Shown here one piece after another: positions 44,382-53,535 of a stretch of 64,000 nucleotides of DNA. A program made the translations under genes and the position numbers. The stretch is taken from NCBI GenBank assembly GCA_017302105.1, contig JAFLCS010000005.1, forward strand, positions 137,574 through 201,573, in the 5' to 3' direction. The DNA is from Caulobacterales bacterium (GTDB taxonomy: Bacteria; Pseudomonadota; Alphaproteobacteria; Caulobacterales; Caulobacteraceae). Every line of letters starts with the position of its first letter. Position 1 is the first letter of the stretch. The notes beneath the pieces were generated by a model that was not told the DNA's origin, did no database searches, and saw only the letters and a list, made by a program, of their open reading frames with translations.

Positions 44382-45881
44382 ATGGAAACCGGAACCTGGA
44401 TTGCGCTGGGCGCATATTTCGCACTGATGCTGGCCATTGGCGTCTACGCCTGGCGCAAGAGCACCAGCGACGTCTCGGGCTATGTGCTGGGCGGGCGCAA
44501 CCTGGGGCCGGGGGTCTCGGCCCTATCGGCCGGCGCCTCGGACATGAGCGGCTGGATCCTGATGGGCCTGCCCGGCGCCATGTTCCTGACCGGCCTGTCG
44601 GGGGCCTGGATCGCGCTGGGCCTGTTCATCGGGGCCCTGGCCAACTACCAGATCGTGGCCCCGCGTCTGCGCGTCTATACCGAGCGCGCCCGCGACGCGA
44701 TCACCATCCCGGACTATTTCGACAACCGCTTCGAGGACCGCTCGCGCCTGCTGCGCATCGTCTCGGCCGTGGTCATCGTGGTCTTCTTCACCCTCTACAC
44801 CTCGTCGGGCATGGTGGCCGGCGGCAAGCTGTTCCAGAGCGCCTTTGGCCTGGACTACGCCTGGGGCCTGTGGATCACCGCCGGGGTGGTGCTGGCCTAT
44901 ACGATGCTGGGTGGTTTCCTGGCCGTCAGCCTGACCGACTTCGTCCAGGGCTGCATCATGTTCGTGGCCCTGATCATGGTGCCGATCGTGGCCCTGGGCG
45001 ATGTCGGCGGCGTCGCCGGCGCGGCCGAGACGGTGCGGTCGGTCAATCCGGATCTGCTGGACCTGTTCAAGGGTACGACCGTGCTGGGCGTGATCTCGGC
45101 CATGGCCTGGGGCCTGGGCTATTTCGGCCAGCCGCACATCCTGGTGCGTTTCATGGCCGTGCGTTCGGTGCGTGACGTGCCGATGATGCGCAACATCGGC
45201 ATGAGCTGGATGCTGGTGACGCTGCTCGGCGCCCTGGCCGTCGGCCTGACCGGCTTGGCCTATGCGACCCAGCACGGGCTGGAGGTCAGCGACCCGGAGA
45301 CCATCTTCATCCTGTTGTCGGACGTGCTGTTCAACCCGCTGATCACCGGCTTTTTGCTGGCGGCGATCCTGGCGGCGATCATGTCGACGATCTCGTCGCA
45401 GCTGTTGGTGTCTTCCAGTTCGCTGGTCGAGGACTTCTACGCCACCTTCCTGCGCAAACAGGCGTCCCAGAAGGAACTGGTCACGGTCGGCCGGCTGGCC
45501 GTCCTCGCCGTGGCCCTGGCCGCCATCTATCTGGCCTACAGCCCCGACAGCAATGTGCTGGGCCTGGTCAGCCAGGCCTGGGCCGGCTTCGGCGCGGCCT
45601 TCGGTCCCTTGATCATCCTGTCGCTGGTGTGGCGGCGCACGACCCGCACCGGCGCCCTGGCCGGGATGATCGTCGGCGCCGCGACCGTGCTGGTCTGGAT
45701 CTACGCGCCGCTGGGGCCGGACGGCGCCGGCCTGTCGAGCGTGATCTACGAAATGGTGCCGGGCTTCATCCTCAGCTTCCTCACCATCATCGTCGTCAGC
45801 CTGATGGGCAAGGCCCCCCCGCCGACCGTCACCGAAACCTTCGACGCGGTGGAAACCGAACTGGCCGAGGCGCGGACCTAG
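44382..45881 (+). CDS. putP: sodium/proline symporter
   Basis: The product has 499 residues, matching E. coli PutP (502). It is an SSS-family transporter with about 13 helices: GGRNLGPGVSALSAGASDMSG, LPGAMFLTGLSGAWIALG, then YFDNRFEDRS, ISAMAWGLGYFGQPHILVRF and LLVSSSSLVEDFY. It imports proline with Na+. It appears monocistronic. A frameshifted HTH gene is convergent. Confidence 0.93.
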   Translation: METGTWIALGAYFALMLAIGVYAWRKSTSDVSGYVLGGRNLGPGVSALSAGASDMSGWILMGLPGAMFLTGLSGAWIALGLFIGALANYQIVAPRLRVYTERARDAITIPDYFDNRFEDRSRLLRIVSAVVIVVFFTLYTSSGMVAGGKLFQSAFGLDYAWGLWITAGVVLAYTMLGGFLAVSLTDFVQGCIMFVALIMVPIVALGDVGGVAGAAETVRSVNPDLLDLFKGTTVLGVISAMAWGLGYFGQPHILVRFMAVRSVRDVPMMRNIGMSWMLVTLLGALAVGLTGLAYATQHGLEVSDPETIFILLSDVLFNPLITGFLLAAILAAIMSTISSQLLVSSSSLVEDFYATFLRKQASQKELVTVGRLAVLAVALAAIYLAYSPDSNVLGLVSQAWAGFGAAFGPLIILSLVWRRTTRTGALAGMIVGAATVLVWIYAPLGPDGAGLSSVIYEMVPGFILSFLTIIVVSLMGKAPPPTVTETFDAVETELAEART

Positions 45882-45884
45882 GGG

Positions 45885-46503
45885 CTACGGCGCCCATTCC
45901 GCCGCCCCGTTCGGCAGACCGACCTGCCGCCGCCAGGCCTTGCGCGACAACGCCAGCAGCCTCTGGTCAATCTCGACCAGAGGGCGCAGCGCACCGTCCG
46001 CATCCCACACAGCCTCGGCCCAGGGCGCGTCTCGATCCCGCGCATGGTCGGCGCGCGCCGTCTCGGCCCCCAGATGCTCGGCGCGCCAATGCATCAGAAA
46101 CCCCAGGTGCCATAGCGGCGCATCCTCCAGGGGTCCGCCGGCCATGAAGGCCGTCAGCACCTGCGCCACCTCACGCTCATTGCGGATCTGGGTGTCGAAT
46201 GCGTCTCGCTGCGCCAGCGCATAGGTGTCCCAGCCCTCCAGCGGCACGGGCGTGCGGCTCTCCGGCGGTGGGCGTCGCCAGCCCTCCGACGCCCGCCGTC
46301 GCCACAGGTTCGACAGCCCCACCCCAAATCGGGCCGCCAGCGACGCCCCCCGTCTCGCCCTGTTCCCACCCCCGCCGAACCCGGGCCCAGGTCTCCTCAT
46401 CCACGATCCTGCGCCGAGGCACCTGCTCCATATTCAGCGCACACCATTCCTCGTGAGTCATATTGGCCCAGTCATGCGTGGGCAGATCGCCGATCTCGCT
46501 CAT
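45885..46503 (-). pseudogene. HTH-domain protein interrupted by a G-run frameshift
   Basis: Two frames combine into one sensible protein of about 205 residues. The first starts at ATG 46503 (MSEIGDLPTHDWANMTHEEW) and reads to RRGWEQGETG. The other continues ASLAARFGVGLSNLWRRR and runs to GLPNGAAEWAP at 45885. The join is a run of six Cs on the plus strand (46346-46351). Five would give an open frame. The middle part looks like a helix-turn-helix (ARFGVGLSNLWRRRASEGW). It may be a small DNA-binding or terminase-small-like protein. A true mutation, a phase-variable tract and an assembly error are all possible. Confidence 0.65.
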
Positions 46504-46592
46504 GGCCCCAGTATCGCCGGGCGCGCGGGGGCGGGGATGAACGCGGCCCTGCACAGGCGCCGCGCCTTCTCTGGCAAGGAATTCGCGCTTCC

Positions 46593-46620
46593 TTTTGCGG
46601 GCGCGCGACGCGCCGCAAAA
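46593..46620. repeat. hairpin in gap before the ATPase cassette
   Basis: TTTTGCGG (46593-46600) and CCGCAAAA (46613-46620) are perfect arms around a G/C-rich core that can pair further with one bulged G. It sits between the divergent HTH gene and the lower-GC cassette, where base composition changes. It could be a bidirectional terminator or a scar of insertion. Confidence 0.4.
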
Positions 46621-46742
46621 CGCTCCGGCGATGGAACTACCGGGTACCGTAAGTGGCTGTGATTGTGTGAGGTTTCGGATATCCGCAGGTTGTTGCTTTC
46701 GCCATTCATCTCGGTAAGGTCGCGAAATCGACAGGAGCACTC

Positions 46743-48107
46743 ATGACGGTCGCGGATAAGACGAAAGCGATGGCAAATCCGACGAAGGCGTTCTTCGTCA
46801 GGATGATTACTAGGGACATTTCACTAGAAGATTGCATCTTAGATTTGATCGACAACAGTGTGGACGGCGCTTGGCGAAGTGAGGGAAGCCGCCCGATGGG
46901 ATTGGCCCAAGACGCAGACCTGTCCGACTACAGCATCGATATCATCGCTAACGACAGATTGTTCTCGATCTCGGACAACTGCGGCGGCATGACGCTCGAC
47001 GATGCTGCGGACCACGCATTCAGTTTTGGGCGTCGCTCAATGGACCAGCACGACGACTACAGTATCGGCGTCTATGGTATCGGAATGAAGCGCGCAGTCT
47101 TCAAGATCGGCGCTGAGATCAACATAACGAGCACCTACGGGGCCGCAGGAACACGCGAGTCCTTTTCGGTACCCATTAACGTCGACACTTGGCTAAACAA
47201 CGATGTTCCGCCCTGGGACTTCGACATTGTCGATGCCGCCCACCTTGACCAGAATGGTGTCAGCATCGTCGTCGAACGGCTGACGTCGGGGGCGTCTAGT
47301 TCGTTCTCTAGCCCGGCCTTCCTGCAAGAGCTACGGCGGACGATCGCCCGGGATTACTCTCTGCACTTGAGTAGAGGCTTGAAGATCTCCCTGAACGAAA
47401 TCCCCATCGTGGGCTGGAAGATCGAATTGTTGGAAGGGGCCGCCTTTTCTCCGATGCGGCTCCAGTACGACGACGAGACTGATGGGGATCCCGTTTCGGT
47501 TGAGATCTTCGGCGGTATGGCCGCGCCGCCGCCAGAGAGTTCCGACCCCGACGCCGAAGACGACGGCGAGCGTCGGTTCGGTTGGTATGTCATTTGTAAC
47601 GGCCGGATCGTGCTGGCCGCCGACAAGACGAACCTGTCGGGATGGGGCACAGAGGATTGGCCCCAGTGGCATCGGCAGTACTCCGGATTCATAGGCATCA
47701 TCTTGTTCACCGCGGCTAAGGCTGCGGCGCTGCCACTCACCACCACGAAGCGAAACGTGGATAAATCGTCTGAAGTGTTTCGACGCGCCCGGCCCAGGAT
47801 GCGCGAGGTCACGCGTCAATGGATCGATTATACAAATCAAAGAAAAACGTCGCTCGAAGAAGCAAAGAAAATCGAGGTCGCGGCTGCGCCGGTATCGATT
47901 TACGCCGTCAAGCAACAGGCAACCGTACAGTTACCAACGTTCGCTCCCAAGCCACCGGCGGAGCGAATGGCGAACATCAACTATGCTATCCCGCTTGCTC
48001 GATTGAAGAAGGTAGCCAAGGAGTTGGGAGGCATTAATCTTAGCTATCGAGATGTTGGCGTGAAGACTTTTGAATATACTTATGAAGATCTCGTTGGGGA
48101 CGAATGA
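46743..48107 (+). CDS. GHKL ATPase (MORC/MutL-like) of an accessory methylation cassette
   Basis: The product has 454 residues. Bergerat-fold motifs: an N-box ILDLIDNSVDG (Asp34 where a general-base Glu is usual, Asn38), DNCGGM (78-83), the glycine-rich lid GVYGIGMKRAVFKIG (109-123) and an S5-type lysine in TTTKRN (Lys336). The last 100 residues have no recognised domain. Such ATPases occur in bacterial restriction-modification-like operons as relatives of MutL and eukaryotic MORC. Codon use and base composition are lower GC than flanking genes. Its stop overlaps the next start (ATGA), so the pair is co-translated. Function is inferred. Confidence 0.78.
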   Translation: MTVADKTKAMANPTKAFFVRMITRDISLEDCILDLIDNSVDGAWRSEGSRPMGLAQDADLSDYSIDIIANDRLFSISDNCGGMTLDDAADHAFSFGRRSMDQHDDYSIGVYGIGMKRAVFKIGAEINITSTYGAAGTRESFSVPINVDTWLNNDVPPWDFDIVDAAHLDQNGVSIVVERLTSGASSSFSSPAFLQELRRTIARDYSLHLSRGLKISLNEIPIVGWKIELLEGAAFSPMRLQYDDETDGDPVSVEIFGGMAAPPPESSDPDAEDDGERRFGWYVICNGRIVLAADKTNLSGWGTEDWPQWHRQYSGFIGIILFTAAKAAALPLTTTKRNVDKSSEVFRRARPRMREVTRQWIDYTNQRKTSLEEAKKIEVAAAPVSIYAVKQQATVQLPTFAPKPPAERMANINYAIPLARLKKVAKELGGINLSYRDVGVKTFEYTYEDLVGDE

Positions 48108-49051
48108 TGTCGTCGTTCGACGCGATCAACTACAGCCTTCGACCCAGTAAGAGCATCCAGCGCCAAGTCGTCTTCGACGGCGTGAAGGTGCTTCAGGCGC
48201 AGCTCGATCTCGACCGGCTGATGTATATCGGCTTCGGGTCGATCTGGTTCACCGACTTCGTCATCGCTCACCGAGTGCTAGGCGTCGATGACATGATTTC
48301 GATCGAGGGAAGCGAAATCGGTTACAGGCGAGCGGTTTTCAATTCGCCTTACGCTACCGTGCGAGTCGAGCAGGGCATGTCGGGCGTAGTGCTTCCCAAA
48401 TTGTTCGCCGACGCGGCGATCAGGAACCGGCCTTGGCTGATCTGGCTCGACTACGACTACGAGTTGAACGAGTCCGTCAGAGATGACATCCGCGCCGTCA
48501 TCGAGAACGCGCCAGTCAGTTCGATCCTCCTAGTAACGTTTAACGGCCACGAAATGGGATACGGGCGCACACCGGAGCGACCGGAGCGCCTTCGAGAACT
48601 TCTAGGCGCGCTGGTGCCCGATGACCTGCCGAAAGCCTCCTGCAAAGATGACCGGATGCAAGAGACGCTTGCCGGCTTGTCGCTCGGGTACATGCAGTCT
48701 GTCGCCGCGGAAGTCGCAAGGCCTGGCGGGTTCGTTCCGGCTTTCCGTATCCTCTATCGCGACAGCGCGCCGATGGTGACGGTTGGCGGGGTTCTGCCCG
48801 CCCGCGGAGCTGCACGGATTGCGGCCGACTTAGTTTCTCAACCTAGCTGGCCCGGTCAGCCGGCAGTCCCGATCAAGGCACCCCACCTTACCTTACGCGA
48901 GGCTGCGGTATTGCAGTCTCAACTTCCTCGGATAGACCAGCTCACGAGAGTGGCTGTTCAGGCATTGGGCTTCGATTTGGAAGATGATCAGATAGCGACT
49001 TTCGAAGCCTACTATCGCCAGTATCCTGCATTCGCGCAGATCGTGTCTTGA
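48104..49051 (+). CDS. uncharacterised Rossmann/methyltransferase-like protein
   Basis: The product has 315 residues. The early region MYIGFGSIWFTDFVIAHR resembles SAM-binding motif I (GFG at 43-45), ISIEGSE (Glu68) could be the ribose-binding acid, and WLIWLDYDYE (111-120) a motif-IV-like strand. There is no classical DNA or RNA methyltransferase catalytic motif, and no PD-(D/E)xK, HNH or GIY-YIG nuclease motif is visible. The C-terminal 80 residues are helical and unassigned. ATG 48104 overlaps the ATPase stop, and 48107 is a second ATG. I do not know its function. It may be an unusual methyltransferase or a degenerate enzyme serving the ATPase. Confidence 0.65.
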   Translation: MMSSFDAINYSLRPSKSIQRQVVFDGVKVLQAQLDLDRLMYIGFGSIWFTDFVIAHRVLGVDDMISIEGSEIGYRRAVFNSPYATVRVEQGMSGVVLPKLFADAAIRNRPWLIWLDYDYELNESVRDDIRAVIENAPVSSILLVTFNGHEMGYGRTPERPERLRELLGALVPDDLPKASCKDDRMQETLAGLSLGYMQSVAAEVARPGGFVPAFRILYRDSAPMVTVGGVLPARGAARIAADLVSQPSWPGQPAVPIKAPHLTLREAAVLQSQLPRIDQLTRVAVQALGFDLEDDQIATFEAYYRQYPAFAQIVS

Positions 49052-49122
49052 TGTCTAAAAAGACGAGGAAATCGGTCTCCTGGCTATGTGCTACGCTTGT
49101 GTGGCGGTAGGCCGTTGGCACG

Positions 49123-50199
49123 ATGATTCTGGTAGACCTTTTCTCTGGTTGCGGCGGGTTTTCCCTGGGCGCTCATCGAGCCGGGTTCTCAGTCGCGTCC
49201 GCCTATGACATTGACGCCACTCTGACGTCATCGTTCACCGCGAATTTCCCAGGCACTCAGCTCGTTCTGGACGATGTTTCGTCGCTCTCTGGAGCTGCGG
49301 TTCTCGCTGGCGCAGGGGGCAAGGTCGACGGTATCTTTGGCGGGCCGCCGTGTCAGGGCTTCAGCGACATCGGGCGCCGACAAAAGGACGATCCGCGGCG
49401 CCAGCTCCTTGGGCACTTTTTCCGCATCGTCAGTGAAGCCGAACCTTCGTTCTTCGTAATGGAGAACGTCCGAGGGTTGGAATATTCAGACGCTCGCGAC
49501 GTGCTGGACGAGGCCGTGGCTCTGGTCGCTGACCGCTACAATATTCTTGGACCCAAGATTTGGAATGCTGCCGATTTTGGCGCCGCGACCAAGCGTCGAC
49601 GCCTTTTCGTGATCGGCATTCATAAGGACGTCGGTGATGCCCTGACCGTCGCTGATGTCGAGGCGATGATGAAGCCGGCGGCGACTGTCCGGGCGGCGAT
49701 CGCCGATCTACAGGACGCGTCATTCGTAGAGATGGCCGATGGATTCGACGTCTGGCGGATTGAAAAGCAAGGCAGACCTCACGCCTACGCGAAGCCGTTG
49801 CGGTCCAGCGACAAGCTGTTCACCGGACAGCAAGCAACCATCCACACCAACAAGGTCATTGAGCGCTTCAAGTCCGTGCCACAGGGCGGCATTGACGCCG
49901 TTGGTCGACATCCCCGCCTAGCTTGGGAAGGCCAATGCCCCACTTTACGCGCTGGCACGGGTTCGGACAGAGGCTCCTACCAGGCCGTTCGGCCTCTACA
50001 CCCCGAAGAGCCTCGGGTCATTACGGTCCGCGAAGCTGCGCGCCTTCAAGGGTTTCCCGACACGCACCGATTCCATCCAACGGTCTGGCATTCGTTCCGC
50101 ATGATCGGCAACAGTGTGTCGCCAATGATGGCAGAGGCAATCTTCACGGCAATCCGTGACAAGCTTGGCTGCGGTGCAAGCTTGGACGAGGCTGCTTAA
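49123..50199 (+). CDS. DNA (cytosine-5-)-methyltransferase
   Basis: The product has 358 residues with the full set of C5-MTase motifs: I (DLFSGCGGFSLG), IV (GGPPCQGFSDIGRR, nucleophile Cys77), VI (ENVRG, 114-118), VIII (TKRRRLFVIG), IX (REAARLQGFPD) and X (IGNSVSP). The target-recognition region lies between VIII and IX (roughly 185-290). The recognition sequence is not predictable from sequence. No dedicated restriction enzyme is adjacent. It follows the unassigned gene by 71 bases on the same strand and completes the cassette. Confidence 0.92.
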   Translation: MILVDLFSGCGGFSLGAHRAGFSVASAYDIDATLTSSFTANFPGTQLVLDDVSSLSGAAVLAGAGGKVDGIFGGPPCQGFSDIGRRQKDDPRRQLLGHFFRIVSEAEPSFFVMENVRGLEYSDARDVLDEAVALVADRYNILGPKIWNAADFGAATKRRRLFVIGIHKDVGDALTVADVEAMMKPAATVRAAIADLQDASFVEMADGFDVWRIEKQGRPHAYAKPLRSSDKLFTGQQATIHTNKVIERFKSVPQGGIDAVGRHPRLAWEGQCPTLRAGTGSDRGSYQAVRPLHPEEPRVITVREAARLQGFPDTHRFHPTVWHSFRMIGNSVSPMMAEAIFTAIRDKLGCGASLDEAA

Positions 50200-50227
50200 G
50201 ACCGCCTTGGCTTGTAAGTCGCCTTTC

Positions 50228-50545
50228 CTACCGCCGCCCCTTCCTGAACCGCTCCGCCTTCTCCGCCGCGGCCTCCGCGCGCCACCGCTTCGGCGCGGAC
50301 CGATCTACCTCTTCCACCGCCCCGGTGAGCGCCTCGTTGGCGAACTCCAGGTCCAGCAGCTTCATCTTCTTGATCTCAGGCTCCGCGCTGCCCTTCGGGT
50401 CGTCGCGCAGTTTGGCGGCGTCCTCGAATTCCAGGTTGGACGCGGCTTCGCGCATGCGGGTTTCGAGGTCCTTGAGGGCGGACTGGAAGTTCGAGCCGAC
50501 GAAGGGCTTGGCCTGTTCGGCCACGCCGGGCCAGGTCAGCCCAAT
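50228..50545 (-). repeat. detached duplicate of the uvrB 3' end
   Basis: This block repeats the last 95-100 codons of uvrB (51214-51520) with scattered substitutions. On the minus strand it reads [37 protein letters not shown] and RSAPKRWR, ending [10 protein letters not shown]. It begins right at the stop codon of the parE-like gene and has no uvrB 5' part. A 24-base in-frame insertion (50378-50401) adds eight residues (DPKGSAEP) not present in the intact copy. It is probably not expressed as a useful protein. It is a relic of an integration or recombination event. Confidence 0.85.
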
Positions 50546-50879
50546 CGTTTGGGCAGGTCCATCTGCTCATGCAGGATGTGGAGAATCTCGATCTGCTTGT
50601 CGTCGAAGCGAAAGGCGAGGGCGTGACGGGGGCTGGCGACCCGTTCGCGCATGGGGAGCCGCCCTCTCGAGTGGTGAATGGGATAGAGGCGAATTCGGGG
50701 ATCGCCGGTCGGCGCGGTTCGAACCCCAGCTCGCTCCGGCTCAATGGCGAGGTCGCGGAAGGCTTGCTCCAACAACAGGCGGTAGCGATGGCGCGCTTCG
50801 GGTCCGAAGCGGCGTCGGTGTGGCGCAGGATTTCCTTGAAGGCCTCTCGGGCCTGAGGCGTCAGAGTGATCCGCCTCAC
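50536..50879 (-). pseudogene. ParE/RelE-type toxin with frameshift
   Basis: The GTG start at 50879 overlaps the parD stop (GTGA). Frame one gives TLTPQAREAFKEILRHT. Another frame then gives FGPEARHRYRLLLEQAFRDL and continues through RIRLYPIHHSRGRLP to EILHILHEQMDLPKRLG. The composite is a normal ParE of about 113 residues. The frame shift is near 50807, where a TT would need to be TTT. As written the toxin is inactive or truncated, which may be a natural detoxification. Confidence 0.65.
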
Positions 50880-51175
50880 TGAGCTCGGGCGTCGAACTCG
50901 GCTTCGGCTTCAGCCTCAAGCGCGTCGAAACAGGCCCCCAGATCGGTGACCTCGATTCCTTCACCCCGATCCAGGCTGGCGATGGCTTCGGCCAGCTTGG
51001 CGTTCAGGCGTTCGAGCTTGGCCTCGTCGTCGAGCGCGTCGGCCGCGATCTGTTCACGCAGCAGATCGATGGCCTGGACGATCACTGCCTCCCGGTCGGG
51101 ATATGCGCCCGAGCGGACCTGATCTTCGATGAAGGCGTCGAGCGCGGGCGGGAGATTGAGCGCGGCGTTTCCCAT
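50876..51175 (-). CDS. ParD-type antitoxin
   Basis: The product has 99 residues with an N-terminal ribbon-helix-helix-like segment (LPPALDAFIEDQVRSGAYPD) and a long acidic helical C-terminus. It is the ParD/CC2985 type. It is followed by the frameshifted ParE with a GTGA overlap, the usual antitoxin-toxin order. The module sits exactly between the intact uvrB and its duplicated tail. Confidence 0.82.
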   Translation of the reverse strand: MGNAALNLPPALDAFIEDQVRSGAYPDREAVIVQAIDLLREQIAADALDDEAKLERLNAKLAEAIASLDRGEGIEVTDLGACFDALEAEAEAEFDARAQ

Positions 51176-51213
51176 GCCTCACGATACCGCAAAACGGACC
51201 CTGGCTGAACCCG

Positions 51214-53535
<2,322 letters not shown>

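Follow-up and report, generated by a model that had tools for sequence, protein, structure and literature searches.

A cassette of three genes in a 64,000 nt stretch of Caulobacterales bacterium DNA (assembly GCA_017302105.1, contig JAFLCS010000005.1, positions 137,574 to 201,573; hereafter the window) is most likely a horizontally acquired, restriction–modification (R-M)-like anti-phage system, a reading given a probability of about 0.55. The genes encode a GHKL ATPase, a protein of the Pfam family Methyltransf_35 and a C5-cytosine DNA methyltransferase (C5 MTase). The conserved unit is the pair of ATPase and Methyltransf_35, and the modification enzyme beside this pair varies. An anti-phage role is suggested by location, as copies occupy defence hotspots both in a bacterium and in phages. 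The gene order, coordinates and common strand given in the original prediction, a note made from the sequence of the window alone, were all correct (Table 1).

Conservation of the ATPase and Methyltransf_35 pair

Scanning with an alignment of the ATPase returned 427 relatives in bacterial genome contigs, of which the best 80 were analysed, and 76 loci in viral contigs; the viral set includes near-identical copies, and its counts are not independent. In 78/80 bacterial and 70/76 viral-contig loci the next gene downstream of the ATPase, on the same strand, encodes Methyltransf_35. This recurrence, in 148 of 156 loci overall, rules out chance adjacency of the genes; the original prediction had named a lack of co-occurrence elsewhere as the finding that would speak against it, and the neighbourhood survey found the opposite. 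The two bacterial exceptions have a broken ATPase frame (L048) and an ATPase fused to a Methyltransf_35 remnant (L058). Among the six viral exceptions one stops at a contig end (L178) and five are longer ATPase paralogues (573–631 aa); by Pfam, the longer paralogue of L177 and a similar second GHKL protein of L046 have ATPase domains only. Such a second, longer GHKL protein (573–582 aa) is found near the C5 MTase and the pair in L046, L060 and L091.

Judged by record titles, the 80 bacterial loci come from proteobacteria, acidobacteria, actinobacteria, Firmicutes, Bacteroidetes, Chloroflexi, cyanobacteria, planctomycetes, spirochaetes and others, some of these phyla being our assignment from genus names. 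One form of the cassette is present in 45 of 5426 complete Escherichia coli genomes and another in 172 of 5426, and the two sets may overlap. PF20553, the accession of Methyltransf_35, was found in 5/101 relatives, 9/398 genomes of the order and 5/398 of the phylum, in sets that overlap and that each count the genome of the window. The ATPase lies upstream of PF20553 in the window and in 13/13 full-length loci from these sampled genomes, being cut by a contig end in L032 and partly matched in L026. Two Methyltransf_35 fragments (L014, L015) had no matching ATPase open reading frame (ORF).

A C5 MTase is found near the pair in 61/80 bacterial and 74/76 viral-contig loci. A DNA MTase beside most pairs argues for self-marking rather than infection sensing, and thus against an abortive infection system in which a SAM (S-adenosylmethionine)-dependent Methyltransf_35 would damage the host once the ATPase, on a trigger set by the C5 MTase, had detected infection. 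Such a system would fit the small mobile size and phage carriage of the cassette, which are usual for abortive systems, and is considered very unlikely here.

The co-divergence set held 160 loci with both pair genes, 138 of them also with a C5 MTase, the duplicates L034, L035 and L106 having been removed beforehand. Among the 100 loci that remained once redundancy was removed, ATPase and Methyltransf_35 distances are closely correlated (Spearman 0.73, Pearson 0.90), and those of the C5 MTase are weakly correlated with the ATPase (0.17 and 0.35, respectively) and with Methyltransf_35 (0.11 and 0.31). The C5 MTase is exchanged often, not freely. The three-gene module of the original prediction is real, mobile, co-inherited and located in defence hotspots, but its C5 MTase is largely exchangeable.

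The arrangement of the modification enzyme also differs between loci. The nearest C5 MTase in the 61 bacterial loci is downstream on the same strand in 19, upstream on the same strand in 22, downstream on the opposite strand in 15 and upstream on the opposite strand in 5. A further 26 loci are without a C5 MTase within 5–6 kb, some through contig ends, and the loci without one in range include pairs inside DISARM-type operons. On a Microvirga plasmid (L008) genes annotated drmD, MmeI, drmA and drmC surround the pair, and L021/L106, L087 and L107 share DISARM gene families with this locus (L021 was scanned); helicases occur in these DISARM-type relatives. In four clostridial loci (L086, L095, L099 and L110; L086 and L099 were scanned) the pair is downstream of a gene resembling 3′-phosphoadenosine 5′-phosphosulfate (PAPS) reductase, a single blast family that possibly represents another DNA modification chemistry. 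Since the pair diverges together, the C5 MTase follows it weakly, and other loci have DISARM or PAPS-reductase-like genes instead, the core is taken to be the pair with a swappable modification enzyme. The pair may be a common module working with chemically different modification systems, and, because it works beside different MTases, the MTase and not the pair is the probable source of sequence recognition.

The ATPase matches HATPase_c_3 (PF13589, E 3e-11), with D34 and N38 in motif I, D78 and G82 in motif II, G112, G114 and K116, a MORC motif at residues 280–290 and an S5-type lysine, Lys336. Its Bergerat-fold motifs, which the original prediction had called complete, are intact: N38, D78, G82, G114 and K116 are invariant in 109/109 sequences, with D at position 34 in 104 of them and E in the other 5. 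Arg288 and Lys336 are also invariant (Lys336 in 109/109), K336 being a candidate basic catalytic residue of a putative S5 fold. MORC proteins are united by a GhXhhpXXRhl motif in the S5 domain (PMC2292703). The window protein reads GWYVICNGRIV at this motif, and a strict match was obtained in 108/109 ATPases (the exception is L159) versus 16 of 2180 shuffled sequences. On the basis of this published motif the ATPase is classed as prokaryotic MORC-like, in line with the MutL/MORC-like ATPases to which the original prediction referred. Searches against PDB sequences gave it weak matches that do not single out MORC proteins (HtpG, the best, at 6e-4; MORC2 at 0.025).

The 315 aa protein had been left unassigned; it belongs to Methyltransf_35 (PF20553, ‘Putative O-methyltransferase’) with E 1e-86 and 291 bits against a curated cut-off of 27, matching positions 2–308 of 309. 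The family is named but uncharacterised, and ‘Putative O-methyltransferase’ is a label rather than the outcome of a test. In METHYLTRANSF_35, R20, Y41, D51, N80, W114 and E266 are invariant among 110 sequences, and Y10, R13, K16, G43, G45, E68, D116, Y218, D220 and M224 are almost so. As many residues are invariant or nearly so, the conservation pattern suggests an active site, with a conserved GxG loop, E68 and D116 as candidate SAM-binding features. The profile comparison that had been proposed for this protein gave no hhalign link to three MTase families; homology to COMT-like, FtsJ, C5 MTase or Vsr proteins was without hhalign support. A PDB sequence search gave two chance-level matches only (E 0.22 and 0.72). 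At one locus, Sinorhizobium meliloti pSymA (L007), matches to Methyltransf_35 end after ~50 codons and restart ~2.8 kb further on, as if interrupted by an insertion.

The C5 MTase matches DNA_methylase (PF00145, E 3e-57) and has a PPCQ catalytic loop. Its motif set had been described as full; motifs I, IV, VI, IX and X were detected by pattern search, but the usual form of motif VIII, QxRxR, had no match in the window enzyme, which reads TKRRR there. The T at the start of motif VIII is shared by 8/9 aligned relatives, L072 having Q. Among the three window proteins it was the only one matched by PADLOC.

Genomic location and borders

The GC content of the cassette is 57.9 % versus 66.4 % in the remainder of the window, and 0 of 537 equal-sized windows (100 bp steps, cassette excluded) have GC as low. 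GC at third codon positions is 66–70 % in the cassette genes versus 88 % in uvrB and 93 % in the symporter gene. The Methyltransf_35 and C5 MTase genes are spaced by 71 bp. The lower GC, the ATGA overlap of the first two genes and the flanks, a frameshifted helix–turn–helix (HTH) gene and a uvrB relic, were all as predicted (Table 1).

Table 1. Features of the cassette and its surroundings, and contents of the corresponding interval in sister loci
Feature	Position or locus	Strand	Basis or remarks
GHKL ATPase gene	46743..48107	+	454 aa; ORF and translation, Pfam
Methyltransf_35 gene	48104..49051	+	315 aa; PF20553 match
C5-cytosine DNA methyltransferase gene	49123..50199	+	358 aa; PF00145 match, catalytic Cys77 in PPCQ
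ATGA start/stop overlap of ATPase and Methyltransf_35 genes	48104..48107	+	
HTH-type gene in two frames, left border of hotspot	45885..46503	-	Longer piece without Pfam match
uvrB 3′-end relic, right flank of cassette	50237..50539	-	81.5 % identity over 303 bp to intact uvrB 3′ end; UVR motif
ParDE-like toxin–antitoxin remnant, between relic and intact uvrB	50536..51175	-	In hotspot, outside cassette
Intact uvrB, right border of hotspot	51214..53535	-	
Vsr, C5 MTase and weakly Eco29kI-like gene	L204, uvrB-side interval		
HSDR_N protein	L205, uvrB-side interval		Pfam only
RT-Toprim and DpnI	L208, uvrB-side interval		
C5 MTase and Eco29kI-family restriction endonuclease	L210, uvrB-side interval		uvrB border is a 94 aa C-terminus at contig end
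RT_II-A with NDT_II-A	L214, uvrB-side interval		
C5 MTase and restriction endonuclease	L219, uvrB-side interval		
Type II MTase and DndB-domain gene	L226, uvrB-side interval		

Flanks of uvrB were compared as 33 loci from 32 of 40 sister genomes. Both borders lay within the sequence read in 12 of the 33; the tally omits the other 21, which lack the HTH border, and not every interval gene was scanned. Between uvrB and the HTH gene (46400–51220 in the window), R-M or retron-type genes are present in 7 of the 12 comparable loci (Table 1), the reverse transcriptase (RT) types being what we take to be retrons. Weaker PADLOC matches occur in three uvrB-side loci (L218, L220 and L235). The uvrB-to-HTH stretch is a defence hotspot in this genus.

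Viral copies occupy a comparable position. The portal-to-gpA interval of 21 P2-like viral loci (3,965–4,681 bp) consists of the trio and at most ORFs of 74–183 aa, Methyltransf_35 being split in L132; PHROGs served to identify a single portal, terminase and gpA protein, and blast families the others. A single record of a prophage in E. coli strain elppa5 lists portal, ATPase, O-methyltransferase, cytosine MTase and replication endonuclease in this order. This interval, between gpQ and gpA, is an anti-phage hotspot of P2-like phages; old-tin blocks phages from there, as did three of eight newly cloned systems (PMC9122126), and a MORC–Methyltransf_35–C5 trio is not named in the hotspot section of that paper. 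The trio is also carried by the Pseudomonas filamentous phage PfAC20, whose cytosine MTase is listed as a component of an incomplete system (PMC11878078), and it stands beside a baseplate gene in L116. The cassette may explain some ‘solitary’ cytosine MTases of prophages.

At the borders themselves, the HTH gene is broken across two frames in the window and is a single frame in relatives such as L219 and L235. Additional uvrB 3′-end fragments adjoin uvrB or lie on another contig in the sister genomes G004, G016, G022 and G029, as if the uvrB 3′ end had been used repeatedly by insertions. The ParDE-like remnant matches ParE_toxin (E 6e-6) and, under its cut-off, ParD_antitoxin (E 0.0015); the ParE-type similarity is distributed over more than one frame.

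Nucleases and possible modes of action

The nuclease survey took in trio loci whose contigs extend 3 kb or more upstream and 4 kb or more downstream, and looked within ~6–7 kb for Vsr, HNH_2 and two candidate restriction endonuclease (REase) families, each modelled; with four families only and some short flanks, nucleases may be missed. Vsr, HNH_2 or a candidate REase was nearby in 34/43 bacterial trio loci and none in 9, and 42/49 viral trio loci had none of the four families. The prediction of a cassette with no nuclease therefore holds for the window copy and most viral loci, but not for most bacterial ones. In the window, a six-frame search of 45881–46743 and 50191–51400 found no remnant of Vsr, HNH_2 or the REase families (best E 0.3). 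A classical R-M system whose nuclease was lost next door was rejected on this result, the four family hidden Markov models (HMMs) giving E 0.3 or worse on six frames of both flanks. Vsr serves the long-term repair of deaminated 5-methylcytosine. The pattern of most bacterial trio loci with one of these families and most viral ones with none fits this role, and where Vsr occurs it is more likely to carry out such repair in the host chromosome than to be a restriction effector.

In the R-M-like anti-phage system proposed here, the C5 MTase would mark self DNA, the MORC-type ATPase would close as an ATP-driven dimeric clamp on DNA without the mark, and Methyltransf_35 may be an obligate effector or coupling subunit of the ATPase. 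It is tentatively suggested, with odds clearly short of even, that the MORC clamp and Methyltransf_35 entrap or compact foreign DNA lacking the mark of the partner enzyme, and so silence it without cutting. If true, such nuclease-free silencing would parallel in bacteria the MORC silencing of eukaryotes, with self defined by a plug-in modification enzyme.

The many phage loci with the trio and none of the four nuclease families can be read in two other ways. Firstly, the cassette could be an ordinary R-M system with a hidden nuclease, Methyltransf_35 or the C-terminus of the ATPase cutting unmethylated DNA. The many invariant or near-invariant acidic and basic residues of Methyltransf_35 would suit this, and a GHKL–nuclease fusion is a validated defence (VcSduA, PMC12137116). 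However, nuclease-family matches were absent from the Pfam, PADLOC and PDB sequence searches, and the alignment shows no conserved PD-(D/E)xK or HNH pattern, which makes a hidden nuclease rather unlikely. Secondly, an anti-restriction or epigenetic cassette could be envisaged, in which the carrying phage is shielded, or host expression altered, by a C5 MTase that the pair regulates, and foreign DNA stays intact. Absence of the four families from 42 of the 49 full-flank viral loci would be expected of it, and the idea that the cytosine MTases of Pf prophages might be solitary has been raised (PMC7549136). Neither the tighter retention of the ATPase–Methyltransf_35 pair than of the MTase nor the pair in DISARM-like operons with no C5 MTase in range is explained in this way, and this second alternative is likewise judged improbable.

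Several observations weigh against an R-M-like anti-phage system. No nuclease was recognised in the window copy by Pfam and PADLOC on the three proteins or by the four HMMs on the flanks, and no PADLOC model matches the ATPase or Methyltransf_35 of the window. In two of the 12 uvrB-side loci (L203; L215, with DUF6236 by Pfam only) none of the scanned genes matched a defence family, and hotspots hold non-defence genes too (PMC9122126). Of 300 permutations, just 0 and 1 equalled the weak C5 MTase correlations, so that this enzyme stays partly tied to the pair. Lastly, hhalign left Methyltransf_35 unlinked to COMT-like proteins (0.9 %), FtsJ (0.1 %) and C5 MTases (0.7 %). As the controls were mixed, FtsJ reaching 89.7 % to C5 MTases and COMT only 4.7 % to FtsJ, this is some evidence against homology with these MTases, and not decisive.

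Comparison with known systems

Like a Type II R-M system the cassette includes a DNA MTase (PF00145, E 3e-57); a cognate restriction endonuclease was found neither by Pfam and PADLOC in the three proteins nor by the four HMMs in the flanks. The HEF_HK/Response_reg_2 system has a similar layout of GHKL protein, second protein and C5 MTase, and Vsr and HNH_2 are often found nearby (PMC8011034). Membership in it was rejected, as neither family was among the Pfam matches at E up to 1, and hhalign gave Methyltransf_35 a probability of 0.2 to seven Response_reg_2 sequences. The MzaB system also has a GHKL or MORC protein near a cytosine MTase, and the MzaB match here (E 0.034) is far under the cut-off.

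Some DISARM-type loci contain the pair itself, between an MmeI-type MTase and drmA; the Microvirga plasmid is annotated in this way, and L021, L087 and L107 are placed with it by the gene families they share. However, the families common to these DISARM-type relatives (drmA, drmB and drmC were tested) are absent beside the window cassette. VcSduA, a Shedu variant, is a GHKL ATPase in experimentally shown phage defence, but a PD-(D/E)xK nuclease is fused to its ATPase (PMC12137116) and none was recognised in the cassette.

A further likeness is to the prokaryotic MORC/paraMORC neighbourhoods of Iyer, Abhiman and Aravind (2008, PMC2292703), in which ATPases with GHKL and S5-type domains and the MORC motif are encoded next to cytosine MTases and Vsr. 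These operons, a helicase-free minority among them, were tied to R-M by gene context. A superfamily II (SFII) helicase is near ~70 % of prokaryotic MORCs there, a majority trait rather than a requirement; Pfam found no SFII helicase in the window cassette, the sole helicase-like neighbour being the housekeeping uvrB. The Methyltransf_35 partner, the swapping of MTases and the copies in phage hotspots are unmentioned in the available part of that paper. In the literature searched, which covered few subscription papers and no bioRxiv preprints, no description of the trio, Methyltransf_35 or PF20553 was found, which is not proof of absence, and no test of the prokaryotic MORC family turned up. 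MORC proteins in an R-M context are already known, and what is without a description found is the nuclease-optional trio with its near-obligate Methyltransf_35 and phage hotspot copies. With this trio the uncharacterised PF20553 gains a functional partner, a MORC-type ATPase, and the compact, widespread cassette offers a way to test what bacterial MORC proteins do in laboratory E. coli. Restriction without cutting, if true, would connect bacterial defence with eukaryotic MORC silencing.

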